Origin: a virus
Strand: one strand, 5' to 3'
Virus record (IMG/VR): IMGVR_UViG_3300042542_004592
Location: 1 to 28,972 of that record
DNA length: 28,972 bases
Shown: positions 11,645-28,216 of the stretch, in pieces
Position numbering within the stretch: the stretch's first letter is position 1
Layout: every line of letters begins with the position of its first letter
Notes under the pieces: model-generated
What the model was told of the DNA's origin: nothing
The model's database searches: none
Seen by the model: only the letters and a program-made list of their open reading frames with translations
Translations under genes and position numbers: made by a program

Positions 11645-13891
11645 ATGCCAAGACCGTTTGAGTTAAATAAAACATGGATAGTTGGACCGTCTAGAGGCAC
11701 AACTACATTTAATGCTCCAGGAAGCATTACAATCGACTATGGTCGCCATGTTGCTAAAGTTTCAGGTCGTGGTGGATCTGGAAACTCACCAGTAGCATCT
11801 GCTTGGGTTACAAATTATAATACCAATTATAATGTTGCTTATCCAATTGCAAATCAACCAGCTACTGCTTGGACAATTACATACTCACCAAATTATAATG
11901 TCATCTATCCAATTGCAAACAGACCAGAAGCCACTCGACCAGCAACAACTTGGTCAATCAACTATAACGCTGGTGTTTATCCGATTGCAAATAGACCAAT
12001 CGCAAATCAGCCAGCAACAGTGTGGTCAACAAACTATAATACAATCACATATCCAATAGCCAACCAACCAGCAACTGCTTGGGTTACAAATTATAGTACC
12101 AATTATAATGCAATCACATATCCAATAGCCAACCAACCAGCAAATGCATGGGCGACTAACTATAACACCAATTATAATACAATCACATATCCAATAGCCA
12201 ACCAACCAGCAAATGCATGGGTAACTAACTACACTATCAACTATAATGCTCTCACATATCCAGAAGCCACTCGACCAGTAACCGCATGGAGTACGAACTA
12301 CAATATTGCAAATGGTCCAGAAGCCACTCGACCAGCAGACGCTTGGACGATTAATTACAATTTAATTTATCCAGAACAAGCTCGTCCAATAACTGCATGG
12401 ACGACTAATTATAATGCATTAACATATCCAGTCACTGCATATAATGCTGGTAATCGACCAGCAGACGCTTGGTCAACTAACTACAACGTTGTTTATCCAG
12501 AAGCAGGTCGCCCTGCCACTGCATGGGTAATTAATTACAACACTAATTATAATTCACTTGTTTATCCTGAAGCAAATCGACCCGTAAATGCATGGGCGAC
12601 TAACTATAACACTAATTATAATGCAATTGTTTATCCAATTGCTAATCAGCCATCCACAGGCTATAATCCAGCAAATTTTGTATATTGGACAGAAACTGCG
12701 CAAGGAGATAGTTATGGTGGTGTTGCAACACTAACAAATTCTGGCAGCGATCCTAATTGCCCTAGTCCATTTTATAGCGCCCCAAATGGAGATTATTTCT
12801 CTTACGAATGTTTTCCTGAAGGCAACACGGAAACCTTTGCAACTAATTACAATGCTGGCGTTTATCCGATTGCAACTCAGCCAATCGCAAATCAGCCAGC
12901 AACAACTTGGTCAATCAACTACAACACTGGCGTGTATCCAATTGGAAATAGACCAGAAGGTTCTAGACCACCAACTGCATGGACAATCAATTATAACGCT
13001 GCTGTTTATCCAATTGCAAATCGACCAGCAACTTCATGGATAATTAATTATGGTGCAACTTATGCTCCTGGTGTTAATCCAATTGCAAATCGACCTGCTA
13101 ATGCATGGACAATTAATTATAATGTCGCAAATGGACCAGAAGCAAATCGACCGATAACTGCGTGGACAATCAACTATAATCTAATTTATCCAATTGCTAC
13201 TCAACCAGCAACTGCATGGATAGTCAATTATAATGCTGGTGTTTATCCAGAACAAGCAAGACCAATTGTTAACCAACCAGCAACAGTATGGTCAACAAAT
13301 TACAATGCTGGCGTTTATCCGATTGCAAATCGTCCAATCGCAAATCAGCCAGCAACAACTTGGTCAACTAATTACAATACTGGTGTGTATCCGATCGCGA
13401 ATCAACCAATTGCCAATCAACCTTCTAATGCGTGGTCAACAAATTACAACACTGGTGTTTATCCAATTGCAAATCGACCCGTAAATGCATGGGCGACTAA
13501 CTATAACACTAACTACAATACAATCACATATCCAGAAGCCAACAGACCAGTTACTGCTTGGACCATCAACTACACTACAAACTATAATGTTGCTTATCCG
13601 ATCGCGAATCAACCAGAGTCTGGTCGCCCAGCAACAACCTATAGCACAAACTACAATGTGGCATATCCGATTGCAAATCGTCCAATCGCAAATCAGCCGA
13701 TAACCGCATACACTCCTGGAACTGTGGGCACTCCAACAACAGTTCTTGGTGTATATCTTCCTGGAGGACCAGTTTCTACAGTTGCTCCTTATGTTCCAGC
13801 AACAGAAGTTGTCTATTGGAGTTTCCCAGACTATCAGACACACCCAGTCTCAGTGCCTCCAGGTGGATATGTTGATATTCAGATTGAATAA
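11645..13891 (+). CDS. Asn/Tyr/Pro-repeat fibre protein, paralogue 1
   Basis: This 748-residue protein has four parts. Residues 1-48 are a head ending in SGRGGSGN. A long repeat array (49 to about 686) has units of roughly 18, 22 or 28 residues of the type ATAWxTNYNTNYNxxYPIANxP, sometimes with EATRP or EAGRP inserted. A non-repeat island at about 339-397 has a Cys pair (C372 in CPSPFY and C389). The C-terminal cap (about 687-748) contains TPTTVLGVYLPGGPV and VPPGGYVDIQIE. Head, island and cap are all shared with the next gene. I do not recognise a named family; the head resembles glycine-rich phage fibre heads with 'YGK...V.GRGGPGN'. A fibre or adhesin role is inferred from position and repetitiveness. 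There is no signal peptide or membrane segment. The start lies 5 bases after the previous stop with only a weak GAGA upstream. Confidence 0.75.
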   Translation: MPRPFELNKTWIVGPSRGTTTFNAPGSITIDYGRHVAKVSGRGGSGNSPVASAWVTNYNTNYNVAYPIANQPATAWTITYSPNYNVIYPIANRPEATRPATTWSINYNAGVYPIANRPIANQPATVWSTNYNTITYPIANQPATAWVTNYSTNYNAITYPIANQPANAWATNYNTNYNTITYPIANQPANAWVTNYTINYNALTYPEATRPVTAWSTNYNIANGPEATRPADAWTINYNLIYPEQARPITAWTTNYNALTYPVTAYNAGNRPADAWSTNYNVVYPEAGRPATAWVINYNTNYNSLVYPEANRPVNAWATNYNTNYNAIVYPIANQPSTGYNPANFVYWTETAQGDSYGGVATLTNSGSDPNCPSPFYSAPNGDYFSYECFPEGNTETFATNYNAGVYPIATQPIANQPATTWSINYNTGVYPIGNRPEGSRPPTAWTINYNAAVYPIANRPATSWIINYGATYAPGVNPIANRPANAWTINYNVANGPEANRPITAWTINYNLIYPIATQPATAWIVNYNAGVYPEQARPIVNQPATVWSTNYNAGVYPIANRPIANQPATTWSTNYNTGVYPIANQPIANQPSNAWSTNYNTGVYPIANRPVNAWATNYNTNYNTITYPEANRPVTAWTINYTTNYNVAYPIANQPESGRPATTYSTNYNVAYPIANRPIANQPITAYTPGTVGTPTTVLGVYLPGGPVSTVAPYVPATEVVYWSFPDYQTHPVSVPPGGYVDIQIE
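11789..13705 (+). repeat. NYN-YPIAN repeat array in paralogue 1
   Basis: This region codes for in-frame tandem repeats with a consensus close to TAW-x-x-NYNTNYN-x-x-YPIANxP. Unit length varies in multiples of three bases (about 54, 66 or 84). The array is interrupted once by the Cys-containing island. Two neighbouring units near 12110-12230 are almost identical at the DNA level. Confidence 0.9.
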
Positions 13892-13909
13892 AACCCAAGA
13901 ATAAAAACG

Positions 13910-13917
13910 AATAAATA
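13910..13917 (+). promoter_or_regulatory. Putative late promoter upstream of paralogue 2
   Basis: AATAAATA differs from the T4 late core TATAAATA only in its first base. It sits in the 78-base gap, 53 bases before the ATG at 13970, and is followed by a strong hairpin that would lie in the 5' leader. Position supports a promoter; identity is inferred from T4. Confidence 0.45.
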
Positions 13918-13920
13918 AGT

Positions 13921-13945
13921 ACATGCTCTGATTGCAGAGTCGTGT
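13921..13945 (+). other. Hairpin in leader of paralogue 2
   Basis: The sequence can form a stem of ACATG/CGTGT stacked on CTCTG/CAGAG, with one bulged T and the four-base loop ATTG. There is no T-run after it, so it is not a standard intrinsic terminator. As RNA it would lie between the putative late promoter and the ribosome-binding GGAAAG, and may protect the transcript or mark its end. Confidence 0.5.
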
Positions 13946-13969
13946 CTTCACGCAAATTTTGGAAAGATA

Positions 13970-16522
13970 ATGCCAAGAAGTACGGATTTAGGTAAAAGTT
14001 GGTTGGGTGGTGGTTCCCGTGGATCGCAAACTTTTAATGCACCTTCCTCTTTAACAATCCCATATGGTCGATATAAAGGGACTGTCACAGGTCGTGGCGG
14101 TTCAGGTAATGCTCCAGTTTCTTCTGCCTGGACAATCAATTACAACACCAACTATAATGTTGCATATCCGATCGCGAACCAACCAGAAGCCGCTCGCCCA
14201 TCTACTGCTTGGACGATCAATTACAATACAAATTATAATGTAGCCTATCCTTTGGCGAATCAACCAGAGGCTGCTCGCCCTTCCACTGCTTGGACGATCA
14301 ATTACAATACAAACTATAATGTCGCGTATCCAATTGCGAATCAGCCAGAAGCCACTCGACCATCTACTGCATGGACCATTAACTATAATGTCGTGTATCC
14401 GATCGCGAATCAACCCGCAACCGCTTGGACGATCAATTATAATACAAATTACAATGTTGCTTATCCATTAGCGAACCAACCAGCAACTGCTTGGACGATC
14501 AATTATAATACCAACTATAATGTGGCATATCCGATTGCCAACCAACCAGAAGCTGCAAGACCAGCCACCACTTGGTCTATTAACTACAATGTGGCATATC
14601 CGATTGCAAATAGACCAGAAGCTGCAAGACCAGCAACTACTTGGTCTATTAATTATAATGTTGCATATCCAATTGCCAACCAACCAGCGAATGCTTGGGT
14701 AATCAATTACAACACCAACTATAATGTTGCATATCCAATTGCCAACCAACCAGCGAATGCTTGGGTAATCAATTACAACACCAACTATAATGTTGCATAT
14801 CCGATCGCGAATCAGCCAGAATCTGGTCGTCCAGCAACTGCGTACAGTATAACTTATAACACGAATTATAATGTTGCATATCCAATTGCAAATAGACCAG
14901 AAGCATCAAGACCTGTGACTGCATACTCAACGAATTATAATGTTGCATATCCAATTGCAAATAGACCAGAACAAGGTCGACCAGTGACTGCATGGTCAAC
15001 AAACTATAATGTAGCATATCCAGTTGCGAACAGACCAGAAGCTGCAAGACCAGTAACTGCTTGGTCAACAAACTATAATACAGTCTATCCAGTTGCAAAT
15101 CAACCAGTTGCAAACTACAATCCAGCAAATAGTTTTAATCATTATTCTAATTCATATATTACAAATGATCTTAATGGTCAGGCATTCTATTACAGCGGTG
15201 CAAATGATCCAGCGCAGCCAGGTTGTCCATCACCGTTCTATTACACAGAAACATTTTATTACTTCTCTCCAGCATTAACACAGGGGTATTATGCTGCATT
15301 TGTTTGCACACCTGTTGGCAATAATGCGAACTATAACACAAACTATAATGTTGCATATCCGATTGCGAATCAACCAATTACTGCATATGCAATTAACTAT
15401 AATACCAATTATAATGTTGCATATCCGATTGCAAATCAGCCAATCACTGCATATACTATTTTGTATAATACAAACTATAATGTTGCATATCCGATTGCGA
15501 ATCAACCAATTACTGCATACACTATTTTGTATAATACCAATTACAATGTTGCTTATCCAATCGCAAATCAACCAGAGTCTGGTCGACCAGTAACTGCATA
15601 TACTATCACTTATAACACCAATTACAATGTTGCTTATCCAATTGCGAATCAACCAGAGTCTGGTCGACCAGTAACTGCTTGGTCAACAAACTATAATGTC
15701 GCTTACCCAATTGCCAATCAACCAGAAGCTGCAAGACCAGTAACTGCTTGGTCAACAAACTATAATACAATCTATCCTGAAGCAAATCGACCAGTAAATG
15801 CATGGACGATTAATTATAACACTAACTATAATACAGTCTATCCTGAAGCAAATCGACCAGTAAATGCTTGGACGATCAACTATAACACCAATTATAATGT
15901 CGCTTATCCAATTGCAAACAGACCAGAAGCCACTCGACCAGTAACTGCTTGGACATCTAATTATAATGTGGCATACCCAATTGCAAACAGACCAGAAGCC
16001 ACTCGACCAGCAACAACTTGGTCAACAAATTACAATACAGTCTATCCTGAAGCAAATCGACCTGTGACTGCATGGACGATTAATTATAACACCAATTATA
16101 ATACTGTATATCCAATTGCAAACAGACCAGAAGCTGCACGACCAGCCACTGCATGGACGATTAATTATAATTCAAATTATAATGTTGTGTATCCAATCGC
16201 AACGCAACCAGAAGCGGCTCGTCCATCAACCGCATGGACTGTCAATTATAACACCAATTATAATGTCGCTTACCCAATTGCCAATCAACCAGAAGCTGCA
16301 AGACCAGTAACTGCATATACTCCAGGAAATGCTGGAACCCCAACCACAGTTCTTGGTGTATATCTTCCTGGCGGTCCTGTTGATCTATCTGGATTTGCTG
16401 GGAATCCTGGCACTGCCCCAACAGTTTCTCCAACTGTCGTCTCATACTATGACTATCCTGACAATAGTAACTATCCAGTGACTGTTCCTCCAGGTGGACA
16501 AGTAAATGTGACGCTTGAGTAA
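13970..16522 (+). CDS. Asn/Tyr/Pro-repeat fibre protein, paralogue 2
   Basis: This 850-residue protein shares its whole architecture with the preceding gene. The head (1-48) ends in TGRGGSGNAP. A repeat array (49 to about 780) uses the unit NYNTNYNVAYPIANQPxAARPxTAW. A Cys island at about 382-450 has C419 in CPSPFY and C446. The cap (about 781-850) has TPTTVLGVYLPGGPV and VPPGGQVNVTLE. Its units are more uniform than in paralogue 1, suggesting younger expansion or stronger homogenisation. The gene begins with GGAAAG about 7 bases before ATG, behind its own promoter-like element, so it may be transcribed separately. No known catalytic motif is present. A fibre or adhesin subunit is the best inference; one copy may be an alternative receptor-binding fibre. 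Confidence 0.75.
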   Translation: MPRSTDLGKSWLGGGSRGSQTFNAPSSLTIPYGRYKGTVTGRGGSGNAPVSSAWTINYNTNYNVAYPIANQPEAARPSTAWTINYNTNYNVAYPLANQPEAARPSTAWTINYNTNYNVAYPIANQPEATRPSTAWTINYNVVYPIANQPATAWTINYNTNYNVAYPLANQPATAWTINYNTNYNVAYPIANQPEAARPATTWSINYNVAYPIANRPEAARPATTWSINYNVAYPIANQPANAWVINYNTNYNVAYPIANQPANAWVINYNTNYNVAYPIANQPESGRPATAYSITYNTNYNVAYPIANRPEASRPVTAYSTNYNVAYPIANRPEQGRPVTAWSTNYNVAYPVANRPEAARPVTAWSTNYNTVYPVANQPVANYNPANSFNHYSNSYITNDLNGQAFYYSGANDPAQPGCPSPFYYTETFYYFSPALTQGYYAAFVCTPVGNNANYNTNYNVAYPIANQPITAYAINYNTNYNVAYPIANQPITAYTILYNTNYNVAYPIANQPITAYTILYNTNYNVAYPIANQPESGRPVTAYTITYNTNYNVAYPIANQPESGRPVTAWSTNYNVAYPIANQPEAARPVTAWSTNYNTIYPEANRPVNAWTINYNTNYNTVYPEANRPVNAWTINYNTNYNVAYPIANRPEATRPVTAWTSNYNVAYPIANRPEATRPATTWSTNYNTVYPEANRPVTAWTINYNTNYNTVYPIANRPEAARPATAWTINYNSNYNVVYPIATQPEAARPSTAWTVNYNTNYNVAYPIANQPEAARPVTAYTPGNAGTPTTVLGVYLPGGPVDLSGFAGNPGTAPTVSPTVVSYYDYPDNSNYPVTVPPGGQVNVTLE
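14114..16312 (+). repeat. NYN-YPIAN repeat array in paralogue 2
   Basis: These are in-frame tandem repeats of about 54, 66 or 84 bases encoding NYNTNYNVAYPIANQP units with optional EAARP or ESGRP spacers. The array is interrupted by the Cys island at about 15113-15320. Long identical stretches occur between units and with paralogue 1. Confidence 0.9.
14654..14802 (+). repeat. Perfect 66-bp tandem duplication
   Basis: Positions 14654-14719 and 14720-14785 are identical over 66 bases, and the next 17 bases (14786-14802) begin a third copy before diverging. The unit starts TATAATGTTGCATATCC and encodes one 22-residue repeat. Perfect identity suggests a recent slippage or unequal recombination event. 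Confidence 0.9.
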
Positions 16523-16556
16523 GTAAAGATCCGTAGAGAAATACTTGATAATTTTT

Positions 16557-16564
16557 CATAAATA
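16557..16564 (+). promoter_or_regulatory. Putative late promoter of the hydroxylase cassette
   Basis: CATAAATA, one base from the T4 late core, lies in the 80-base gap, 39 bases before the ATG at 16603. A good ribosome-binding sequence (GAGGTG) follows just before the start codon. This would drive the enzyme cassette 16603-19638. Confidence 0.5.
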
Positions 16565-16602
16565 GTTTATAATTTGAAGTTGCAATTGTTTTGAGGTGAT
16601 TT

Positions 16603-17205
16603 ATGCCATATCCTGTACAAAAATATGTACGCGAATTGAATCAATTTTGTATCGCAAATGAAGCATTTACGCAAGAAGAAATAGACAAGATCATTGATCT
16701 TGAAGATCTGCAAAAGTTCCAACGAGGTGGAGTTGGTGGCGGTGGTGGCGCAGGTCAAGTAAATAAAAAAGTCCGCGACAGCGATGTTATGTGGATTAAC
16801 CACGAACCAAACTCAGACTGGCTATTCCAAAAATTTGCTCATTTGACAGCGATGGTCAATTATGATCATTTCATGTATGAAATTGACGGATTTGAAAATT
16901 TTCAATATACTGTCTACAAAGCAAAAAATAAGCAGCACTATGACTGGCATATCGATGCTGGCAATACTTATTCCAAATTTGAAAGAAAAATTAGCGCAAC
17001 CATAGTGTTAACCGATCCTGAGGATTATGAGGGTGGTGAATTTCAATGCGTTCTTCATGGTCGTGTCGATGAGCCAATTACAATTAAACCAAAAAGAGGG
17101 GATGCAATTTTCTTTGCCTCTTGGATGCCGCATCGAGTTGCACCTGTGACAAAAGGAACTCGTAAATCTCTAGTGTGTTGGGTGATGGGCGAAAGATCAT
17201 GTTAA
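16603..17205 (+). CDS. 2-oxoglutarate/Fe(II)-dependent oxygenase, prolyl-4-hydroxylase (PKHD) type
   Basis: This is a 200-residue single-domain dioxygenase. The double-stranded beta-helix core carries the iron triad His116-x-Asp118 (in YDWHIDAG) and His177 (in MPHRVAPV), plus Arg187 ten residues later (TRKS), which would bind the 2-oxoglutarate carboxylate. All four key residues are present, so the enzyme is probably active. The family uses O2 and 2-oxoglutarate to hydroxylate side chains, classically prolines, in the cytoplasm. A glycine-rich stretch lies at about 46-54. The gene has a strong GAGGTG site, its own late-promoter-like element, and overlaps the next gene by seven bases. Its neighbours are proline-rich repeat fibres and a Gnt1-like glycosyltransferase, which makes a fibre protein a plausible substrate. 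Proline specificity is inferred. Confidence 0.85.
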   Translation: MPYPVQKYVRELNQFCIANEAFTQEEIDKIIDLEDLQKFQRGGVGGGGGAGQVNKKVRDSDVMWINHEPNSDWLFQKFAHLTAMVNYDHFMYEIDGFENFQYTVYKAKNKQHYDWHIDAGNTYSKFERKISATIVLTDPEDYEGGEFQCVLHGRVDEPITIKPKRGDAIFFASWMPHRVAPVTKGTRKSLVCWVMGERSC

Positions 17206-17936
17206 ATTTGAAAAGAATGTTTGGTAATGAGATTATAGAGTTTTATTGCCATCCAAATCTAGAAGGTGTTATTCCAGAACCAAAAGCGGCGATTAAAAAC
17301 CTTCCAGAATGGTTCAAAGATCTTGCGCCTACTTGTGAGGGACCAGAAGACCAAAGAGACTCATTCGGCAACAAAAATATGAGTGCAAAAAAGTGTTTGC
17401 CAATGCTGGATGCAATGTCTCTTGGATATATGATTCCGCTTGTATCAGATCTTCATATTCGCAGCAATCACGATAACACTCAAATTGAAGTCAAAAACCC
17501 TCCAGGGATAGTTACTTGTGAGTTTCATGATGCAAATCAATTAGGTGGAAAAAACAAATTAGGCATCAAACATGGACATGCACTCAAATTTATCAATCGA
17601 TGGGTGATCAAAACAGCTCCAGGTTGGTCAACTCTTTTTGTACCACCGCTAAATCATTTTGATCAACCATTTACTTGTTTGTCTGGGTTTGTAGACACAG
17701 ATGCATATCCAAAGGAAGTTAATTTTCCAGCGATTTTAAAAATCTATGATGCAGATATACATCTACCCGCAGGGACACCATTGATCACTGCTATTCCAAT
17801 CAAAAGAGATTCATTTTCGAAAAAACCAAAAGTGCGAAAAATGACTGCGAAAGAAATGAAAACTATTGAAAAAATTCAAAACACTCAAGGCATGAGAACA
17901 CACCACTATACATATGAATTGAGAAAGAGGGATTAA
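17199..17936 (+). CDS. DUF6065-like protein, copy 1
   Basis: This is a 245-residue protein of unknown function. I prefer ATG 17199, which overlaps the preceding stop (ATGTTAA), over an upstream in-frame GTG at 17175; ATG 17217 is also possible. Features shared with the next gene are LGYMIPLVSDLHIR, a central glycine-containing HGHALKFINRW stretch, STLFVPPLNHF, and a late segment with ITAIPIKRDS. These fit my memory of the DUF6065 family (PEWF near the start, GW/GY-IP core, 'P..G.P...IPI' end), a predicted beta-rich domain with no known activity. The C-terminus is basic (KKPKVRKMTAKEMK). Coupling to the oxygenase and the GlcNAc transferase suggests a partner in the same modification pathway, but the sequence shows no catalytic motif I can name. 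Confidence 0.65.
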   Translation: MLNLKRMFGNEIIEFYCHPNLEGVIPEPKAAIKNLPEWFKDLAPTCEGPEDQRDSFGNKNMSAKKCLPMLDAMSLGYMIPLVSDLHIRSNHDNTQIEVKNPPGIVTCEFHDANQLGGKNKLGIKHGHALKFINRWVIKTAPGWSTLFVPPLNHFDQPFTCLSGFVDTDAYPKEVNFPAILKIYDADIHLPAGTPLITAIPIKRDSFSKKPKVRKMTAKEMKTIEKIQNTQGMRTHHYTYELRKRD

Positions 17937-17938
17937 TT

Positions 17939-18682
17939 ATGGTTAATTGGTTTCGAAAAAATGATATTGACTTCAAATTTGCTGACACTGTAGAAGGAAC
18001 AGTCTACCCACACTATCCTCCAGTTCTTGCAAAAGAGTTGAAACCTCTTAAGGAACATCAAGAGAGTAAATTTGGTGATTATAGATTTCCTGGTTGCCCA
18101 GGAATGCATGATTATTCCCGTTTAGGTTATATCATTCCAGCATGGACCAATTTTCATATTAAAGCAAACAAAGCAGGAACAGTAGTTATTGCTGGTAGCA
18201 GAGGTGAAGATGCGCTAAAACGAGCAACGATGGTAAAACAACCACAACAAATGGCTCGAGACATAACTGATGGTGCGTATACTCCAGAAGGTGGAATAGA
18301 AAATACAATTTGGAATTGCCCTGGAGCATGGAAAATTCATGGATACGGTAAGGTTTCGTGTTTACTCCTTCCTGCTTTTTTCCATTCTAACTTTTTAGAT
18401 GATCTTTATGTTTATCCTGGAGTTGTTGACTATAATGGATTCACAGTTATTAATTTTATTTTCTCAGCAAAACGACCTTGCGAGGTTGAAATTAAAGCAG
18501 GTGATCCTGTACTGCAGGTAATTCCAATTATCACATCTAAAGATATTGTTGCTTCTTATGGACCAGCAACACAATACGAAAAAGATTACAGTAAAGTGTC
18601 TAAATGGTTTCATGAAACGAATTTTTACAGAAGATATTTTATGGTCCGAAAGAAATTTAAATTGATCAAGGATTTTGAATGA
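17939..18682 (+). CDS. DUF6065-like protein, copy 2
   Basis: This 247-residue protein is a diverged relative of the upstream gene. Corresponding blocks are LGYIIPAWTNFHIK, WKIHGYGKVSCLLLPAFFH, VYPGVVDYNGF and GDPVLQVIPIITS. Sequence identity outside these blocks is low, so the duplication is old or the pair was inherited together. It begins two bases after the previous stop with AGAGGG upstream, and its stop overlaps the next start (ATGA), so it is translationally coupled on both sides. No transmembrane segment or nucleotide-binding motif is visible. Function is unknown; a role in hydroxylation or glycosylation of virion proteins is inferred only from context. Confidence 0.65.
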   Translation: MVNWFRKNDIDFKFADTVEGTVYPHYPPVLAKELKPLKEHQESKFGDYRFPGCPGMHDYSRLGYIIPAWTNFHIKANKAGTVVIAGSRGEDALKRATMVKQPQQMARDITDGAYTPEGGIENTIWNCPGAWKIHGYGKVSCLLLPAFFHSNFLDDLYVYPGVVDYNGFTVINFIFSAKRPCEVEIKAGDPVLQVIPIITSKDIVASYGPATQYEKDYSKVSKWFHETNFYRRYFMVRKKFKLIKDFE

Positions 18683-19638
18683 AAAAGATATTTGTAAATG
18701 TTTGCTCATATAGAGACAAACTACTCGCACCAACTCTTGAGAGCGCCATGGAAAATGAATCTGGTCGCAATCAGATTGTTTATGGCGTTTTTGAGCAAAC
18801 TGCATTAGAGGATAGTTTAAAAACAAAGTATCCGCATCTAGCAACTCACAAACGAGTTCGTTATAAACGAATTGATCCAGAATATTCGGACGGTGTGGTT
18901 TGGGCTCGCGGTATCAATGCGATGCAAATCTATGAAGAAGAGTTTCAATATCAAATCGATTCTCATATGCTCTTTGATAAAGGTTGGGACAATTATCTAG
19001 TTCTTGATTATATGCAAGCCTGTAAAGTTGCAGGACATGATAAAGTTCTCTTGACCTGTGGCACAAAGAACTTTGATCTTGATGGTGATAGAATTACCAA
19101 GCATACATTGACTGACGACATTTCAGTCAATCTTGGATACTATCAATTCGATAAGAATATGAGACTTCATGCCCATGGTCCATGGGTTCCTGCTCGAGAT
19201 GTAGTTGCTCCATCTCGCCACATTTGCGCTGGGAACTTCTTTGCTCCTGCCAAATGGGTCCGCGAGGTTGGATATAATACAAATATCTTCTTCGAAGGCG
19301 AAGAGCAGATGTTCGTCATCAGTTCTTTCGTAAAGGGATATAAGATCTATCATATGCGTCGAGCAAAAGTTTATCACTATCTTCGCTCTTCAAACTACGA
19401 GACGAAACAAACTGTCAACCCAGTGGCAAATGCACATCGACTTCGAATGAATCAAGAAAGATCTGAGAAAGAACTCAGTAATTATCTCTATTCTCTCGAC
19501 GAGGAGCAACTCGAGGCTTTCCGCAAGTATTCGGGTGTCGATTATATAAATAGAAAATTAGAGGAACGAGCACTCTCTAGGCATCTGAAAGCAGATCCGA
19601 GTGTAGAAGTCGATTGGGAAGTTCCAAATAGAGAGTAA
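18679..19638 (+). CDS. GlcNAc-transferase-like glycosyltransferase (PF11397, Skp1 Gnt1-like)
   Basis: This 319-residue enzyme opens with KIFVNVCSYRD, then LAPTLESAMENE and VYGVFEQ, the typical start of the 'Glycosyltransferase (GlcNAc)' family. The metal/nucleotide-sugar motif is probably Asp94-Ser-His96 (QIDSHMLF), followed by GWD. Later blocks are CAGNFFAPAKWVREV, FFEGEEQMFV (about 205-212) and VYHYLRSSNYE. In eukaryotes the founding member, Dictyostelium Gnt1, adds GlcNAc to the hydroxyproline of Skp1 made by a prolyl 4-hydroxylase; bacterial and phage members have uncertain substrates. The start overlaps the previous stop (ATGA). Co-transcription with a prolyl-hydroxylase-like gene makes hydroxyproline glycosylation an attractive inference. 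The C-terminal 50 residues are charged and possibly helical. Confidence 0.82.
   Translation: MKKIFVNVCSYRDKLLAPTLESAMENESGRNQIVYGVFEQTALEDSLKTKYPHLATHKRVRYKRIDPEYSDGVVWARGINAMQIYEEEFQYQIDSHMLFDKGWDNYLVLDYMQACKVAGHDKVLLTCGTKNFDLDGDRITKHTLTDDISVNLGYYQFDKNMRLHAHGPWVPARDVVAPSRHICAGNFFAPAKWVREVGYNTNIFFEGEEQMFVISSFVKGYKIYHMRRAKVYHYLRSSNYETKQTVNPVANAHRLRMNQERSEKELSNYLYSLDEEQLEAFRKYSGVDYINRKLEERALSRHLKADPSVEVDWEVPNRE
19545..19552 (+). promoter_or_regulatory. Possible late promoter inside the end of the GlcNAc-transferase gene
   Basis: TATAAATA exactly matches the T4 late core, 88 bases before the ATG at 19641, within codons for Tyr-Ile-Asn. It could give the following small structural gene its own late transcript. 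Chance occurrence in AT-rich coding sequence cannot be excluded. Confidence 0.35.
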
Positions 19639-19640
19639 AG

Positions 19641-20186
19641 ATGAGTGCAATAAAGAGAGCGAAATTTAAGATATATGAATCGGGTAATTGTTCAGTCTCA
19701 GCAGAAGGCTGCACAATAGCATTCGATAAAGATGCAGCTTTTCAATATTTTCCCTCTAACACAATGAATTACTTGCTGGCTCTCGCAGGGACAACCAAGT
19801 GTACGAATGAAGACAATGATGTTTATCTTGCAAATAATCTTTATACAAATACCTGGTCTTCATATATCGAACCATGGGACTATACAAAATCAGTAAATGC
19901 AAGTGTTATTGACGGAGCATTTGTTCAAATTACTACCGAAAATGTAACAACTTCTCAGTGTACATTTAAAGCAGCGAATGTTGTTAATGAATCGATCTCT
20001 CATACTAGCGATAAGAAAACATTTTTGTTTGTTTACGGAGAGGATTTTCTTGTTAACGGAGAGCAGAAGTTAACAGCAAATTCAAGAAAAACATTCGTCG
20101 ATGTGTACCATGCAGGGAATAATATAACAAAGACGATTACTGCCAATTCTACTCCTGTAACAGTAGTCGTTATCGAAGTAAACTAA
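19641..20186 (+). CDS. Hypothetical beta-rich protein
   Basis: This is a 181-residue protein I cannot assign. It is rich in Asn, Thr, Val and Ser, with predicted alternating beta strands (KIYESGNCSVSAEGCTIAF; VTVVVIEV at the end). It contains four cysteines, two of them near the start. There is no signal peptide, membrane helix or known active-site motif. It starts two bases after the GlcNAc-transferase stop with AGAG upstream, but its composition is closer to the following fibre genes. It could be a small virion decoration or fibre-associated protein, or a substrate or accessory of the preceding enzyme cassette. Confidence 0.6.
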   Translation: MSAIKRAKFKIYESGNCSVSAEGCTIAFDKDAAFQYFPSNTMNYLLALAGTTKCTNEDNDVYLANNLYTNTWSSYIEPWDYTKSVNASVIDGAFVQITTENVTTSQCTFKAANVVNESISHTSDKKTFLFVYGEDFLVNGEQKLTANSRKTFVDVYHAGNNITKTITANSTPVTVVVIEVN

Positions 20187-20214
20187 AAAGACACCATTCT
20201 GCTCTGCGAAACCC

Positions 20215-20229
20215 CTATTTTATAAATAG
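20215..20229 (+). promoter_or_regulatory. Late promoter (TATAAATA) within an inverted repeat
   Basis: The core TATAAATA is at 20221-20228, in a 67-base gap and 25 bases before the last base preceding the ATG at 20254. It is a perfect match to the T4 late consensus. It overlaps the inverted repeat CTATTT-TAT-AAATAG. This is the best promoter candidate in the window and would drive the adaptor-collagen fibre operon. Confidence 0.65.
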
Positions 20230-20253
20230 AGCAATAATAATAGGATTTCATAA

Positions 20254-20589
20254 ATGGCGCAGTTTATAGAATTGGATCTGGACCAGGGTGCAGATTTTAC
20301 CGTTGATCTAGACTTGATTAAGGATGATGGCAGTGTTCTAAACATTGCTAATTACTCATTCACATCCTCAATGCGCAAATCATTCTATTCCTCCTCTGTC
20401 GCAGCTAATTTAACTGTGACAGTTGCAAACACATCAAATGGAAATATTATATTAAGTTTGAATGCAGCTACCACTTCTAACATTAAGGCTGGTCGTTACT
20501 TGTTTGATGTAAAGCAAATAGACAATTCAAGTGTTACAACACGCCTTGTTGAAGGCATTATAACAGTTCTACCGCAGGTAACGAAATGA
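20254..20589 (+). CDS. Small fibre-adaptor-like protein (immunoglobulin/BppU-N-like)
   Basis: This 111-residue protein has a pattern common just before collagen-like fibre genes in T4-like phages: [14 protein letters not shown], a central [10 protein letters not shown], and then LKAGRY-like [12 protein letters not shown] followed by [13 protein letters not shown]. It appears to be a single small beta-sandwich, similar in style to N-terminal domains of baseplate upper proteins. It probably helps attach or assemble the collagen-like fibre. Its stop overlaps the next start (ATGA), so the two are translationally coupled. There is a late-promoter-like sequence 26 bases upstream. The family assignment is by remembered resemblance. 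Confidence 0.65.
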
Positions 20590-23500
20590 CTCAGATTCGC
20601 GTTTCAACAGGTCGTGGTGCGCAAGGTTTAACTGGTCCTCAAGGTCCGTCTGGTCCACAAGGTGCTGCTGGACCAACTGGTCCTTCTGGCGGTCCTCAAG
20701 GTCCACAGGGACCACAAGGTGCTACAGGTCCACAAGGACCACAAGGACCACAAGGTCCTCAAGGACCACAAGGTCCTCAAGGAGCAACAGGTAATACTGG
20801 TCCGCAGGGTCCACAAGGTGCTGCTGGTCCTCAAGGACCACAAGGTGCGACAGGTGCGCAAGGATCGACAGGTTCGGCTGGACCACAAGGACCAACAGGT
20901 CCGCAGGGCGACATTGGACCATTAGGTAATGTGGGACCACAGGGTCTAACAGGTCCACAAGGACCACAAGGACCACAAGGCGATTTCGGACCACAAGGAC
21001 CACAAGGTGCGCTCGGTGATGCTGGTCCACAAGGACCACAAGGACCACAAGGTGCTACAGGTCCACAAGGTCCTCAAGGTCCACAAGGAGCAACAGGTAA
21101 TACTGGTCCACAAGGACCACAAGGTCCTCAAGGAGCAACAGGCAATACTGGTCCGCAGGGTCCACAAGGTGCTGCTGGTCCGCAGGGACCACAAGGACCA
21201 CAAGGTCCTCAAGGACCGCAGGGTCCACAAGGTGCTGCTGGTCCGCAGGGACCACAAGGACCACAAGGTCCTCAAGGTGCAGCAGGTTCTGGCATCACTA
21301 TTCAAGGAACTGTGGCGAATGTTGGAAATTTGCCAGGTAGCGCAGCTGATGGTGATGCATATATCGTTCTTGCTAATGGACATTTATATGTTTATGACAC
21401 CGCAACTCCTGAATGGATCGATGCGGGTCCAATTGTTGGACCACAAGGACCACAGGGTCCACAAGGACCACAAGGACCACAGGGTCCACAGGGTGTAACA
21501 GGTAATACAGGTCCACAAGGACCACAAGGTCCACAGGGCGTTCAAGGCTCACAAGGTGAGATTGGACCACAAGGTCCGCAAGGACCACAGGGCGTTTTTG
21601 GTCCACAAGGACCACAAGGTCCACAAGGGCTTCAAGGTGATCATGGTCCACAAGGTCCGCAAGGACCACAGGGTCCACAGGGTCCACAAGGTGTGTTTGG
21701 TCCTCAAGGTCCACAAGGTGTGGTTGGTGGCACTGGTCCACAAGGTCCGCAGGGTGCGCAAGGCATTCAAGGTTTAACTGGCGAAACTGGTCCGCAAGGT
21801 CCACAAGGACCACAGGGTGTGCAAGGTGCTCAGGGTCCACAAGGACCACAAGGTGTTCCAGGATCAACTGGACCACAGGGACCACAAGGACCGCAAGGTG
21901 TTACAGGTCCACAAGGACCACAAGGTCCTCAAGGAGCAACAGGCAATACTGGTCCGCAGGGTCCGCAAGGTGTTGTCGGTCCGCAGGGTCCACAGGGACC
22001 GCAAGGTCCAACTGGTGCACAAGGTTCTGGTATTACAGTTCTTGGCACCGTCAGCACTGTAGGGAATCTTCCTGGTGGTGCATCAGACGGCGATGCATAT
22101 ATTGTAACTGCTGATGGTCACTTATATGTTTGGAATTCAGGTTCTTCAACTTGGATCGATGCTGGTGCAATTGTTGGACCACAAGGTCCGCAGGGTCCGC
22201 AAGGGTCACAAGGTTCAACTGGTCCTCAAGGTCCACAAGGTGGAATTGGTCCGCAGGGTCCGCAGGGTCCACAAGGACCACAAGGTCCACAGGGACCGCA
22301 GGGTGTCGCTGGCGCAAGAACTTATGATGTAACAAACAGTGGCGCAAGTCATTTTTTGATTGATGGTGCAAATGATCCAACACTCTCATTATTGCGCGGT
22401 TTCACTTATATCTTTGATGTAAATGCATCTGGACATCCATTTTGGATTCAAACTGTTTCTGGTGCATATAGTGCTGGTGATGTCTATAACACTGGCGTTT
22501 CAAATAATGGTGATGATGTCGGTCAAATATTCTTCGAAGTTCCATATAATGCACCAAGCACATTGTACTATGTCTGCCAAAATCATGCAGCCATGGCTGG
22601 TACAATTAATATCAGTGATCTAGGTCCACAAGGACCACAAGGACCACAAGGTCCACAGGGACCGCAAGGACCGCAGGGTCCACAAGGTTCACAAGGTAAC
22701 ACTGGTCCTCAAGGTCCACAAGGACCACAGGGACCATCTGGTGTTTCAGATGTTGCAGGACCACAGGGTCCACAGGGACCACAAGGTCCACAGGGACCGC
22801 AGGGTGTTGCTGGACCACAGGGACCGCAGGGTGTGTTTGGTCCTCAAGGTCCTCAAGGTGATCATGGTCCACAAGGTCCACAGGGACCACAAGGTAATAT
22901 TGGTCCGCAGGGACCACAAGGTCCACAGGGACCGCAGGGTGTGATTGGTCCGCAAGGACCAACTGGACCACAAGGTCCTCAAGGACCGCAAGGCGACGCT
23001 TCTACAGTTCCTGGTCCTCAAGGTCCACAAGGTGTCTTTGGTCCTCAAGGACCACAGGGTGTAACTGGTGCACAAGGTCCGCAGGGTGTGTTTGGTCCAC
23101 AAGGACCGCAGGGACCACAAGGACCGCAAGGATCTCAAGGTATTACTGGTGAAACTGGCGCTGTCGGTCCTCAAGGTCCTCAAGGTCCTCAAGGACCACA
23201 AGGTCCTCAAGGTGTTGTCGGTCCTCAAGGTCCTCAAGGACCAGAAGGTCCACAAGGTCCGCAAGGTATTGTTGGTCCTCAAGGTCCGCAGGGTGTTCAA
23301 GGTAATCTTGGTCCACAAGGTCCACAAGGACCATCTGGTCCACAGGGTGATGCATCAACTGTTGCAGGTCCACAAGGACCACAGGGTGCACAAGGAGATT
23401 CAGTTACTGGTCCTCAAGGACCACAGGGACCACAAGGTGGACTTGGTCCGCAGGGTCCACAAGGTCCACAAGGTCCGCAAGGATCGCAAGGATTAACTGG

Positions 23501-24038
23501 TGATACTGGTCCACAAGGTCCACAGGGACCACAAGGTGCTATAGGTCCACAGGGTCCACAAGGACCACAGGGTGTGACTGGCGATACTGGTCCACAAGGA
23601 CCGCAAGGACCACAGGGCGTTACTGGACCACAAGGACCGCAGGGACCACAAGGTGTTACTGGACCGCAAGGACCGCAAGGTGTAACAGGTCCACAAGGAC
23701 CGCAGGGTCCGATTGGATCAACTGGTGATGCTGGTCCACAAGGACCGCAGGGACCACAAGGTGTTACTGGACCACAAGGACCACAAGGTCCGCAAGGTGT
23801 TGCTGGTCCGCAAGGACCAACTGGTCCAGTAGCAGGGTCTGACACACAAGTCATCTTTAATGATGGTGGCAGTGTTGGTGCGAACTCGAACTTAACATTT
23901 GCAAAAACAACAAGCACTCTCACATCAAATACGATTGTTGCTGCAAATAATGTTGCATATGCAAATACGACTGGGGTTGTAAAGGTTGTTGTATACTATA
24001 ATACAGGAACTGGAACATTAGATACGGTATTCTTATAA
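20586..24038 (+). CDS. Collagen-like tail fibre protein with embedded cupredoxin domain
   Basis: This 1150-residue fibre is dominated by Gly-Pro-Gln triplets from residue 11 to about 1082, so a collagen triple helix is expected. Four globular pieces interrupt or end it. Two related 50-residue modules lie at 235-284 and 481-530 (GTV, NLPG, DGDAYIV, GHLYV, WIDAG-IVG). A cupredoxin-like domain lies at 577-679 with His617 (GHPFWI), Cys664, His667 and Met670 (VCQNHAAM), the ligand order of a type 1 copper site with amicyanin-like spacing. The C-terminal cap is at about 1083-1150 ([18 protein letters not shown]), probably for trimerisation. There is one early phase slip (GPSGGPQ). Start ATG overlaps the previous stop. 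Proline is at the X position of most triplets and Gln at Y. It is a likely receptor-binding or side fibre and a candidate substrate of the hydroxylase. Confidence 0.88.
20616..23834 (+). repeat. Collagen-like GPQ triplet repeats
   Basis: In-frame 9-base repeats encode mainly Gly-Pro-Gln with occasional GVTGDT, GATGNT, GVFGPQ and similar variants. Glycine codons alternate GGT/GGA, proline CCA/CCG/CCT and glutamine CAA/CAG irregularly, so the DNA is less repetitive than the protein. Globular modules interrupt the array at about 21288-21440, 22026-22175 and 22311-22622. Confidence 0.95.
22311..22622 (+). other. Cupredoxin-like domain in collagen fibre
   Basis: This segment encodes residues 576-679 of the collagen-like protein. 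The order His (GHPF) - Cys - x2 - His - x2 - Met matches type 1 copper proteins of the amicyanin class, and the surrounding strands (TYIFDV, IFFEVP, LYYVC, GTINI) match the cupredoxin fold. Copper binding is inferred. Confidence 0.7.
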
Positions 24039-24314: not shown

Positions 24315-26438
24315 ATGGCAAAATTAAAAGACGGCTCGCGAATTTACGGTAATGTCACTATTGACGCTGGCGCATCAGCCGTATCTGTAAATGCAACGAC
24401 GATAAATGCTTCATCGTTTGTTTTATCAAATGGTGTAGATCTTGTCATTCTCTCTCAAACTGGCGGCACTACTTCGAACGATGCCTATGCGCAAGCAAAC
24501 TCTGCTCGCAATCAAGCGAATACAGGTTATGGACAAGCAAATGCCGCATATGCTCAGGCAAACACTGCTCGCGGCACAGCCAATGATGCATATGCACAAG
24601 CGAATACTGCTTATGGTCAGGCAAATAATGGTTATGCTCAAGCGAATGCGGCTTATGGACAAGCCAACGCTGCTTACGGTCAAGCCAACGCTGCTTACGG
24701 TCAAGCGAATTCTGCTCGAGACCAAGCAAATTCTGCTCGCACACAAGCAAATAGTGCTTATGCAGAAGCCAATCTGAAGTTGAATCTAACTGGTGGTTCT
24801 GTCACTGGTGACTTAACCATTTCTGGTAATCTTGTTGTTCAAGGTAATGCAACTACAATCAATGTAAGCAATTTGAGCGTCAATGACTCAATTATTCTAT
24901 TGTCTGCAAATAGCACTGGCGATGCTGCTGATATTGGTTTTGTAGGCAATATCACTCGTGGTGCTACAGCAACACATGTTGGCTTTGTTCGTATACATCA
25001 ACTCAATGAATTCCAAATTTTTGATAATTATGAACTTCAACCAACTAACAATATTATTGATATTGCCAACTATAATTATAGACTTGGCAATCTTCGTGTT
25101 AATGCAATTAATGCTAATAGTGTGCTCATTCTTGGAAATGCCGCAGCAACTCAAGCAAATCTAACACTTGCTCGCGATCAAGCGAACACTGCTCGCACCA
25201 CAGCCAATGATGCATATGCTCAAGCAAATACCGCAAGAGATACTGCAAATGCTGCGTATGCGCAAGCAAATACTGGTTACACTCAGGCAAATACTGGTTA
25301 TGCTCAAGCGAATGCGGCTTATGGACAAGCCAACGCTGCTTACGGTCAAGCGAATGCAGCATATAGCACTGCGAATACAGCCAACACAACGGCAAATCTG
25401 GCATATGCTCAAGCAAATTCAAATTATCAACCTGCTGTAACTCGCCTTGATGTTACGAACAACGGCGCAGGTGCATATCGGTTTGATCAGTATGGTGCTG
25501 CTGTTGATAACCCATCACTTTATGTTCGTGCTGGCGAGACGATTGCATTTAATTTAAACAATGCTGGACACCCATTCGCGATTCGTGTTTCATCTGGTGG
25601 TTCAAACTATGACACTGGACTGACTCATGTTGCAACTGATGGAACAGTAAGCACTGGTTCTTCTGCTCAAGGCAAAGTTTCTGGCTCATTATACTGGAAA
25701 GTTCCTTATGAACTTGGTGGAAACACTTATGTTTATCAGTGCACTATTCATAGTGGAATGGTTGGTAACATTGTACTTGAACCAAATGGAACAATCGCAT
25801 ATGCTCAAGCCAATACAGCGAGAAATCAGGCAAACACTGCCCGCACAACTGCTAATGATGCTTATGGTGCTGCTAATACTGCCCAAACAACAGCACAAAA
25901 TGCATATGGTCAAGCAAATACTGCTTATGGACAAGCGAATGCCGCTTATGGTCAGGCAAACACTGCACGAACCCAAGCAAATACTGCTTATGGTCAAGCA
26001 AATGCAGCATATGCCCAAGCAAATTCTGCGTATGCTCAGGCAAATAATGCTTATGGTGCTGCTAACAATATTATTAGCGGCACAACTTCTATTACATTGA
26101 AAGCATATAAAGATTTCTTGCAAGCCAATACGAATGTTAACGCTGCAAATACTTGCGACTTATCAGTATCAAATTACTTCCGCGCTGTAATGACAGCCAG
26201 TGCTCAATTCACCTTTATCAATGCTCCATCTTCTGGTACTGCTCAGCAATTCTCATTGTTGATTATGCAAAATGCTACAGGTGGCTACTCACCAACATTT
26301 GCGAATACAGTGTACTGGGCGGGTGGATCAATTCCTCCAGCAACGACTGCAGCAAATTCTCGTGACTTGTGGACCTTCATCACTTATGATGGTGGTTCAA
26401 CATATTGGGGTACATTGACGATGAAGGATGCGCGATAA
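24315..26438 (+). CDS. Heptad-repeat tail fibre with cupredoxin domain and shared C-terminal tip
   Basis: This is a 707-residue fibre. Residues 1-55 (LKDGSRIYGNVTIDAG) are a beta-rich head. Three arrays of the heptad AYxQANx (about 56-154, 278-370 and 494-585) suggest long alpha-helical coiled-coil stalks. Between the first two lies a beta module (about 155-277: GDLTISGNLVVQGNATTI, SIILLSANSTGDAADIGF) common in phage fibres. Between the last two lies a cupredoxin-like domain (about 373-491) with His419 (GHPF), Cys476, His479 and Met482 (QCTIHSGM). Residues 595-707 form the tip domain (GGYSPTFANTVYWAGG...TMKDAR) shared with the 8721-11639 fibre. It follows its own promoter-like element. It is probably a trimeric tail fibre; receptor specificity cannot be read from the sequence. 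Confidence 0.82.
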   Translation: MAKLKDGSRIYGNVTIDAGASAVSVNATTINASSFVLSNGVDLVILSQTGGTTSNDAYAQANSARNQANTGYGQANAAYAQANTARGTANDAYAQANTAYGQANNGYAQANAAYGQANAAYGQANAAYGQANSARDQANSARTQANSAYAEANLKLNLTGGSVTGDLTISGNLVVQGNATTINVSNLSVNDSIILLSANSTGDAADIGFVGNITRGATATHVGFVRIHQLNEFQIFDNYELQPTNNIIDIANYNYRLGNLRVNAINANSVLILGNAAATQANLTLARDQANTARTTANDAYAQANTARDTANAAYAQANTGYTQANTGYAQANAAYGQANAAYGQANAAYSTANTANTTANLAYAQANSNYQPAVTRLDVTNNGAGAYRFDQYGAAVDNPSLYVRAGETIAFNLNNAGHPFAIRVSSGGSNYDTGLTHVATDGTVSTGSSAQGKVSGSLYWKVPYELGGNTYVYQCTIHSGMVGNIVLEPNGTIAYAQANTARNQANTARTTANDAYGAANTAQTTAQNAYGQANTAYGQANAAYGQANTARTQANTAYGQANAAYAQANSAYAQANNAYGAANNIISGTTSITLKAYKDFLQANTNVNAANTCDLSVSNYFRAVMTASAQFTFINAPSSGTAQQFSLLIMQNATGGYSPTFANTVYWAGGSIPPATTAANSRDLWTFITYDGGSTYWGTLTMKDAR
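24480..26063 (+). repeat. AYxQAN heptad-coding 21-bp repeats (three arrays)
   Basis: Units of 21 bases encode AYGQANA/AYAQANT/ARxQANT, in three arrays at about 24480-24770, 25160-25425 and 25800-26063. A 57-base stretch is identical at 24629-24685 and 25295-25351, showing exchange or recent duplication between arrays. Confidence 0.9.
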
Positions 26439-26441
26439 ATA
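26434..26441 (+). promoter_or_regulatory. Putative late promoter of the glycosyltransferase cluster
   Basis: GATAAATA, one base from the T4 late core, overlaps the stop codon of the fibre gene and lies 27 bases before the ATG at 26469. It would transcribe the downstream glycosyltransferase and oxygenase genes. Confidence 0.4.
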
Positions 26442-26468
26442 GGTTAAATTATCTTTTGTGAGTTTGTT

Positions 26469-27464
26469 ATGAAAATCCATGTACTGGTAAATCCTCGCAA
26501 TCCAACAGGGTTGATGAATCGTGTGGACCCATTTGCTGTCCACGCATACAAATATATCAAACATTTATCGCCGCATTTCCATATGATTCATTATGGAGTT
26601 CCAGGCGCGCAAGTTGATTGCGAGCATATTGATATTCCAACATTACCAAAAGAAATAAAGCGATTCAATGAACTTGCTGGCGAAGAAATTCGCAAGAGAG
26701 CAAGCGATGGTGATTTGATTGTTTGTTTCTTTGGCGTTGACAATCAACTCGCATGTGAGATGAATCCAAACTGCAAACCAGTTGAACCTTCTATTGGATA
26801 TAGAGCCAATGGCATCTTTGCGCCATATCGTGTGTTTACTTCATATGCAAATATGCATATGTTTTATGGCGAGCGCGGAATGCTCATGAGCCCTTCTTGG
26901 TTCGATGATGTAATTGGTAATCCATTTACAATCAGTGAATTTGAGTACAATGAAAAGAAAGACGATTACTTTTTATTTTTGGGTCGAGTATGCGAAGAGA
27001 AAGGTATTCATCTTGCAATTCAAGCAACAGAAAAGATGGGTAAAAAACTTATCATTGCTGGTCCTGGATCGCTCAAAGCATTGGGATATGAGAAAGTTCC
27101 AGATCATGTTGAGGTCTTTGGTGTTGCTGATGCAGAACAACGAAAACATCTATTAAAAAATGCAAAGGCATTGATTGGTTTGACGCATTATGTTGAGCCA
27201 TTCGGCAATATGATCATTGAGGCTAATCTATCAGGCACTCCTGTAATTACAACTGATTGGGGTGCATTTCCAGAGATTGTTCTTGAGGGACAAACAGGAT
27301 ATCGTGTGCGAGATTTTAAATCCCTATTAACTGCAATTGAGAGTATTGATAAGATTGCTTCATTTGATTGTAGAGAATGGGGATTAAATTTCTCTGATGA
27401 GGAGATCCACGATCAACATCGTCGATATCTAGAAAAAGTTATAAAGAATAAATTCTATGAATAA
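26469..27464 (+). CDS. GT4-family glycosyltransferase
   Basis: This 331-residue enzyme is of the GT-B, retaining GT4 type. The C-terminal Rossmann half is clear: FLGRVCEEKGIHLAI (about 170-184), KLIIAGPG, AKALIGLTHYVEPFGN, and the E-x7-E pair Glu243 and Glu251 with PVITTDWGAFPE, typical for nucleotide-sugar binding. The N-terminal half, which binds the acceptor, is short and diverged, as is usual in phages. It transfers a sugar from a nucleotide donor in the cytoplasm; donor and acceptor are unknown. The next gene overlaps it by eight bases. Being next to fibre genes and other sugar enzymes, it may extend a glycan on virion proteins or modify host surface sugars. Confidence 0.85.
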   Translation: MKIHVLVNPRNPTGLMNRVDPFAVHAYKYIKHLSPHFHMIHYGVPGAQVDCEHIDIPTLPKEIKRFNELAGEEIRKRASDGDLIVCFFGVDNQLACEMNPNCKPVEPSIGYRANGIFAPYRVFTSYANMHMFYGERGMLMSPSWFDDVIGNPFTISEFEYNEKKDDYFLFLGRVCEEKGIHLAIQATEKMGKKLIIAGPGSLKALGYEKVPDHVEVFGVADAEQRKHLLKNAKALIGLTHYVEPFGNMIIEANLSGTPVITTDWGAFPEIVLEGQTGYRVRDFKSLLTAIESIDKIASFDCREWGLNFSDEEIHDQHRRYLEKVIKNKFYE

Positions 27465-28209: not shown

Positions 28210-28216
28210 GTGAGTT

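Follow-up and report, generated by a model that had tools for sequence, protein, structure and literature searches.

The 28,972-nucleotide viral sequence analysed here (IMG/VR record IMGVR_UViG_3300042542_004592, taken whole and hereafter called the window) carries a tight gene cassette for a 2-oxoglutarate (2OG)-Fe(II) oxygenase with a predicted prolyl-4-hydroxylase fold (P4H), two paralogous DUF6065 proteins and a PF11397 glycosyltransferase (GT), and the clade to which this P4H belongs is near-obligately linked to a proline-rich repeat protein encoded upstream. This repeat protein is, in our judgement, quite likely the substrate of the P4H. On balance we lean slightly towards a cassette devoted to one kind of fibre-like protein, in which proline hydroxylation of the repeat protein is followed by capping: the P4H would hydroxylate prolines in the tandem repeats of the protein encoded just upstream, the new hydroxyl would be capped by the PF11397 GT in the window phage and perhaps by a sulfotransferase-like enzyme in some relatives, and the two DUF6065 proteins would accompany the P4H. 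The arrangement recurs in numerous uncultivated phages of aquatic origin, in which a P4H-like gene adjoins a proline-rich repeat gene, mostly with a GT close by.

IMG/VR was searched for relatives of the GT, both DUF6065 proteins and the P4H, and 221 loci were obtained; L011 and L012, being parts of the window itself, were excluded. The remaining loci and the window were collapsed into 92 groups by shared exact 800-mers, or 93 units with the window counted apart; 55 units qualified by having a P4H above 150 bits, a DUF6065a above 200 bits and at least 500 nt of upstream sequence, and many of the non-qualifying units hold distant DUF6065 relatives without such a P4H. The groups share ancestry and are not independent events. 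Among the P4H copies above 150 bits, 62 of 64 have the C-terminal domain of the repeat protein within 3 kb upstream, and the contigs of the other 2 extend merely 88 and 218 nt in that direction. The distance is at most 300 nt in 52 of the 55 qualifying units and about 1.4 kb in the other 3 (L052, L058 and L181), in which a sulfotransferase-like gene and another gene lie between the repeat protein and the P4H.

The converse search, started from the repeat C-terminal domain, returned 115 loci in 60 groups, covering many of the same contigs, and in 55 of the 60 a P4H gene begins no more than 400 nt downstream. The exceptions are varied: one contig ends 150 nt past the repeat gene, and P4H positions 2-34 were still matched there with 17 bits (L270); two have the P4H 1448 nt and 636 nt downstream (L338 and L341, respectively); one has it on the opposite side of the repeat gene (L336); and the last has no P4H beside that copy, the longer second repeat protein of the same 271 kb phage directly preceding a P4H (L340). 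As a control, 80 loci were fetched by a different fibre tip domain (profile A10), and the 48 records of at least 13 kb were searched whole, with repeat profile A8 only. Repeat domain and P4H are both present in 30, the repeat domain only in 1 (G004), the P4H only in none, and neither in 17 (Fisher p 4.2e-12), a joint presence that partly reflects genome proximity, the records being fragments. Of the 12 fibre genes behind profile A10, 11 come from cassette loci and the twelfth (L340) adjoins a repeat gene.

The pairing is also kept where it is duplicated. In 4 genomes (G032, G034, G048 and G058) two repeat proteins occur together with two P4Hs; each P4H lies 42-50 nt past its own repeat domain, and the GT comes after the first P4H in all 4. 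A jumbo phage of 226 kb (G005) encodes consecutively a repeat protein of 749 amino acids with 17.6% Pro, a P4H (191 bits), a DUF6065a (283 bits) and a DUF6065b (158 bits), and in a 271 kb record (G001) a P4H sits at the record end. The groups L029/L030, L031, L032 and L035 have two repeat-protein/P4H pairs per genome, with the GT after one and the DUF6065 pair after the other.

The gene preceding the P4H stands out by its proline content. In the 52 groups where DUF6065a comes directly after the P4H, the median for this gene is 11.5% Pro, against 4.1% in 589 other open reading frames (ORFs); it reaches at least 8% Pro in 49 and is the most proline-rich non-collagen ORF of the locus in 34, being outranked by a paralogous repeat gene in several others. 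Across 33 repeat proteins proline makes up 8.6-25.1% of residues, and Gly or Ala directly after it and Asn at positions -2 and +2 are found above the composition-based expectation. Tyrosine ranges from 1.2 to 17.4% and is therefore not a general target. Pfam matches of the repeat proteins (Phage-MuB_C and a BAHCC1-like Tudor) were judged chance matches to the repeats.

Several observations weigh against this interpretation. Because profiles A8 and A9 of the repeat domain derive from genes beside P4Hs, the upstream count is to some extent circular, the converse and whole-record counts less so. No repeat domain accompanies the 13 P4H copies scoring 23-150 bits (one of them cut by a contig end), nor did the profiles find it in the regions viewed of P-SSM7, ACG-2014a and AG-345-E15, cultured or single-cell genomes with P4Hs of 131-139 bits; weak homologues without the domain likewise occur in G017, G018, G019, G022 and G023. 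The link thus has a sharp limit and belongs to one P4H clade. The large phages G001, G004 and G005 have a shorter repeat protein (299-371 amino acids) with no adjacent P4H, and G004 gave no P4H match at all when searched; G061-G063, a single population, hold extra P4H homologues (143.6 and/or 47.6 bits) with no adjacent repeat-domain match. In a phage collection of 50,697 records the repeat domain gave only a chance-level match and the GT and DUF6065b gave none, so that no cultured carrier of the cassette came to light there. Some of these exceptions come from 24 records picked by hand to test exceptions, GT-less ones included, which are not a sample. In the L163 group, a second P4H (144 bits) and a DUF6065 gene (165 bits) form an opposite-strand pair beside a collagen-like ORF, without a repeat domain.

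At its left end the window encodes baseplate wedge and DUF4815 proteins, and it probably belongs to a T4-like phage. All cassette genes, from 11645 to 24038, lie on the + strand, in the following order:

11645-13891, +: proline-rich NYN/YPIANxP repeat protein, first paralogue, a putative fibre (748 amino acids, 11.4% Pro; its C-terminal domain is in alignment A8)
13970-16522, +: proline-rich repeat protein, second paralogue, a putative fibre and the candidate substrate (850 amino acids, 11.2% Pro; NYN 43 times, YP[ILVE]A[NT][QR]P 28 times)
16545-16573, +: promoter-like site 5' of the P4H gene (a consensus match only, at 11 of 12 positions; contains CATAAATA)
16603-17205, +: P4H-fold 2OG-Fe(II) oxygenase (200 amino acids; PF13640 66.4 bits, cut-off 27; phrog_61 134.6 bits)
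17199-17936, +: DUF6065a, with a predicted dUTPase-like fold (PF19541 33.5 bits, cut-off 26.6; phrog_7084 162 bits)
17939-18682, +: DUF6065b, a diverged paralogue (phrog_7084 51 bits; no Pfam match)
18679-19638, +: PF11397 GT (319 amino acids; 90.9 bits, cut-off 21)
19641-20186, +: small conserved gene (no Pfam or PHROG match; found in 9 of the 10 loci L001-L010 at 27-97% identity)
20254-20589, +: phrog_1084-type protein, also matching phrog_3304 (L-shaped tail fibre assembly)
20586-24038, +: GPQ collagen-like fibre (PF01391 391 bits)

An earlier reading of the window made from its sequence alone had placed a prolyl-hydroxylase-type oxygenase and a PF11397 GT in one coupled cassette between repeat fibres and a collagen fibre, and both assignments and the arrangement hold: the P4H stop is overlapped by the DUF6065a ATG at 17199 and the DUF6065b stop by the GT ATG at 18679, and two further small genes separate the GT from the collagen gene. 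The DUF6065 pair between P4H and GT had been overlooked in that reading. The four cassette enzymes are under purifying selection, with ratios of nonsynonymous to synonymous substitution rates (dN/dS) of 0.03-0.19 against L001 and L004 (one dS exceeds 4 and is saturated). The repeat proteins are presumably part of the virion.

The key residues of the oxygenase are intact. H116, D118 and H177, the HxD...H triad for Fe(II), are invariant in 49 aligned sequences including the window, as is R187, the basic residue after the distal histidine, which we take to bind 2-oxoglutarate. Structures were predicted for the P4H and DUF6065a. The AlphaFold2 model of the P4H (predicted local distance difference test, pLDDT, 89.6) has its best PDB match in the Pseudomonas putida P4H 4iw3 (Z 21.1, root-mean-square deviation (rmsd) 2.7, 181 residues aligned), followed by the Trichoplax PHD (Z 20.2) and human PHD2 (up to 19.6); it also matches the algal P4H bound to a (Ser-Pro)5 peptide (Z 19.0), PBCV-1 vCPH (Z 18.5) and the Dictyostelium PHD 6t8m (Z 16.9). 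The enzyme is thus predicted to have a prolyl-hydroxylase fold, and we consider it probable that it hydroxylates proline. A point on the other side is that its nearest solved relative by sequence is the PKHD-type PiuC, which is close in fold too (Z 18.0), so that the fold supports a proline substrate and does not prove it.

Two other targets were weighed for the oxygenase. The top structural match, 4iw3, was solved in complex with EF-Tu, and a host protein of this kind could be the target; the pairing with the repeat protein, duplicated pairs included, would be unexpected for a host-directed enzyme, and we regard such a target as very improbable. Asparagine of the NYN/YN repeats is a second candidate, and here the composition of the repeat proteins tells against proline: Asn is as abundant as Pro (7.8-20.5% in the 33 repeat proteins) and is enriched two residues to either side of it. 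Nevertheless, the model groups with prolyl hydroxylases, a fold that would favour Pro over Asn as the target residue, and it is by proline content that the gene preceding the P4H is distinguished; modification of Asn in place of Pro therefore seems improbable.

For the second step, the PF11397 GT was found in 46 of the 55 qualifying groups. This is the family to which Skp1 Gnt1 of Dictyostelium belongs. D94-S95-H96 is invariant in 33 GT sequences and is a candidate DxD-like motif; a sequence comparison with the PDB gave no credible relative. In a more distant set (L082), a PF11397 GT scoring 96 bits occurs with a pair of DUF6065 genes and a P4H (PF13640 55 bits); two genes before the GT lies a YN/P repeat ORF of 7.5% Pro in which the C-terminal domain of the repeat family was not matched, and in the similar L093 a glycine-rich ORF takes the position of the repeat ORF. 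One scan of bacterial genomes gave a single match to the GT, a relative of 49% identity on a 4.4 kb contig filed as Chitinophagaceae (L423, DOMR01000007.1); this contig may have come from a phage and been binned with bacterial sequence.

The absence of the GT from the other 9 groups counts against a general second step and fits an alternative in which hydroxylation of the repeat protein stands on its own, with the GT and sulfotransferase-like enzymes acting on other residues or on a host glycan. Consistent with that alternative, whole-record searches found no GT match in 7 of the 9 GT-less groups (L052, L066, L067, L071, L073, L077 and L143, searched as G002 and G010-G015; L075 and L151 were not among them), nor in the jumbo phage G005; the L071 group has 1620 nt of sequence after DUF6065a. 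Against it, in the groups L028, L029, L031, L032 and L035 the GT comes directly after the second P4H and not after the DUF6065 pair, and in 5 of the 9 GT-less groups (L052, L066, L067, L071 and L143) a sulfotransferase-like gene directly adjoins the P4H. The PF03567 cut-off is exceeded in three of these (L052, L071 and L143) as well as in L058 and in one of the L181 genes; it is not reached in L066 and the other L181 gene, and L067 was assigned by a profile built in this analysis. In the remaining GT-less groups (L073, L075, L077 and L151) no sulfotransferase-like gene was seen either. Hydroxylation for its own sake thus strikes us as rather unlikely: enzymes that modify hydroxyl groups keep turning up next to the hydroxylase, in keeping with capping after hydroxylation. 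The GT would then act on hydroxyproline, and the sugar, by analogy with Dictyostelium, might be GlcNAc, as first suggested. We hold the chances of a complete hydroxylate-then-glycosylate route to be evenly balanced.

That route had initially been proposed for the fibres of the phage in general, the collagen-like one included, and for this protein the survey gave a different answer. In collagen, hydroxyproline is formed at the Y position of Gly-X-Y triplets (PMC3368898). In the window collagen, proline occupies X in 190 of 279 triplets and Y in 1, and across 37 collagen-like ORFs of cassette groups the figures are 3559 and 89 of 6340. Furthermore, a collagen-like ORF occurs within -6 to +8 kb of the cassette in 22 of the 36 groups with enough flank and in none of the other 14. 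On these counts we reject collagen as the main partner of the P4H. A hydroxylated and glycosylated collagen on the phage tail has in its favour that in the window and many relatives the collagen gene follows the cassette at a distance of a few genes, and that collagen tail fibres are discussed beside viral P4H in PMC9301287; in view of the Y-position and neighbourhood counts we hold it to be improbable. The collagen-like fibre is a neighbour in some of these phages and a poor candidate for the target. What survives of the fibre hypothesis is thus its repeat-protein half, for which the co-occurrence of P4H, repeat protein and, in most groups, GT makes the two-enzyme pathway plausible.

P4H and GT are separated by two DUF6065 paralogues, of which DUF6065b occurs in more of the qualifying groups (52 of 55) than the GT, the groups having been selected for DUF6065a. 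The DUF6065a model (pLDDT 87.3) is predicted to have a dUTPase/dCTP-deaminase-like fold: the VIA comparison gave 3h6x with Z 10.1 (rmsd 3.3, 120 of 245 residues), all 50 VIA matches shown being dUTPases, and Foldseek gave a probability of 1.00 with a best E of 2.9e-4 and low TM-scores by query length (0.25-0.40). No sequence match to PDB chains was found. V165, D166, T167, D168 and Y170 are invariant in 46 sequences, a stretch that to us resembles dUTPase motif III; the rest of the five catalytic dUTPase motifs could not be made out by eye. Of the phage collection, 52 records match DUF6065a: 49 belong to haloarchaeal viruses (30-34% identity) and 3 to cyanophages (25-26%); none of the 50,697 matches DUF6065b.

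dUTPases are commonly trimers, and for this reason the DUF6065 proteins might hold or present the repeat protein; they might otherwise act on a nucleotide or nucleotide sugar. That they are nucleotide enzymes, making for example a special nucleotide or nucleotide sugar, is suggested by the predicted fold, by the motif-III-like stretch and by relatives outside the cassette near ribonucleotide reductase genes in the haloviruses HF2 and Serpecor1 and in cyanophage S-RIM4 (L225, L226 and L431), a setting that also counts against our main interpretation. On the other hand, the pair stays with the P4H where the GT was not found, a common fold proves no function, the further dUTPase motifs are missing to the eye, and in Synechococcus phage Sf-CH8 the relative lies among hypothetical and photosystem genes, with no nucleotide gene annotated in the region viewed. 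We therefore think a nucleotide enzyme possible, though unlikely. No P4H is annotated in the regions viewed of HF2, Serpecor1, S-RIM4 and Sf-CH8. With respect to the dUTPase/dCTP deaminase superfamily, the likeness of DUF6065a lies in the 120 aligned residues of its predicted fold, and the difference in its single motif-like stretch, its low TM-scores and the absence of a PDB sequence match.

The proposed pathway has its closest parallel in Dictyostelium Skp1, where the hydroxylase PhyA acts first and the hydroxyproline is then glycosylated, according to PMC3515798. Here too a P4H-fold hydroxylase and a PF11397-type GT are encoded together, in the majority of qualifying groups and in the distant L082; the system differs in being phage-encoded, in its likely substrate, a repetitive fibre-like protein, in the DUF6065 pair and in the sulfotransferase-like gene that replaces the GT in some phage relatives. 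The phrog_61 2OG-Fe(II) oxygenases of marine phages, described in PMC12774648 as structurally like human EGLN3, share the family and the prolyl-hydroxylase fold of the window P4H. They differ in context, as in about 6 kb viewed of P-SSM7, ACG-2014a and AG-345-E15 the profiles found no DUF6065 and no GT, as well as no repeat domain. The chlorovirus PBCV-1 P4H (5c5t) is likewise virus-encoded and similar in fold, and differs in that its virus infects algae; hydroxyproline in viral proteins has been reported, to judge from a title cited in PMC9301287. Mycobacteriophages provide a case of glycans on phage virion proteins (Freeman et al. 2023, cited in PMC12619734); the citing passage places them at the C-termini of capsid and tail-tube subunits and mentions no step by a hydroxylase.

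Our literature search, from which most subscription papers and all bioRxiv preprints were out of reach, found no report of prolyl hydroxylation and glycosylation of phage fibres and no paper mentioning DUF6065. P4H genes were abundant in a 2022 survey of viruses from the Baltic, according to which their use by viruses 'remains cryptic' (PMC9301287). The pairing with the repeat protein now gives a concrete candidate substrate for one clade of viral P4Hs and makes the question testable with a few genes, and DUF6065, a family with no assigned function, gains a predicted fold and a genetic context. If the pathway is real, phages decorate their fibres via hydroxyproline, with possible consequences for fibre stability and receptor choice, and phage assembly gains an oxygen-dependent step. 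More tentatively, the cassettes may represent a widespread and apparently undescribed modification island of T4-like and jumbo phages, in which each proline-rich fibre would have its own P4H and DUF6065 pair and a sugar or sulfate finish, producing a coat linked through hydroxyproline, as on Skp1 or the cell-wall proteins of plants.

Several minor features of the window complete the description. Within the site upstream of the P4H gene, CATAAATA is similar to the T4 late motif; the promoter scan gave 50 sites against 22 expected, an excess inflated by the repeats of the region. On the question of the host, the DUF4815 protein has Pelagibacter phage Mosig as its top-ranking cultured match, at 36% identity across 54% of its length. 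Over 25202-28623 the window and L049 share 99.2% identity, whereas in the cassette, over 16043-19580, identity with this same contig (there listed as L021) is 67.6%, a contrast consistent with exchange of cassette and fibres against a common background; in this comparison the mosaic boundary falls inside the AQAN fibre gene.

Both the collagen (22314-22625) and the AQAN fibre (25437-25790) contain a cupredoxin-like insert with the pattern H...C..H..M, presumably that of type-1 copper ligands. The AQAN insert scores 18.3 bits against PF00127, below the cut-off of 21.2, and the collagen insert has a weak rusticyanin match (E 0.16); a search with the copper-ligand motif matches ORFs of 79 fetched loci, many of them redundant. 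Finally, a conserved trio at 26469-28774 comprises a GT4-type glycosyltransferase, a gene of 250 amino acids with no family and a DUF6445 protein that weakly matches phrog_274, a PHROG which the P4H matches too, and this trio might serve to extend the glycan.

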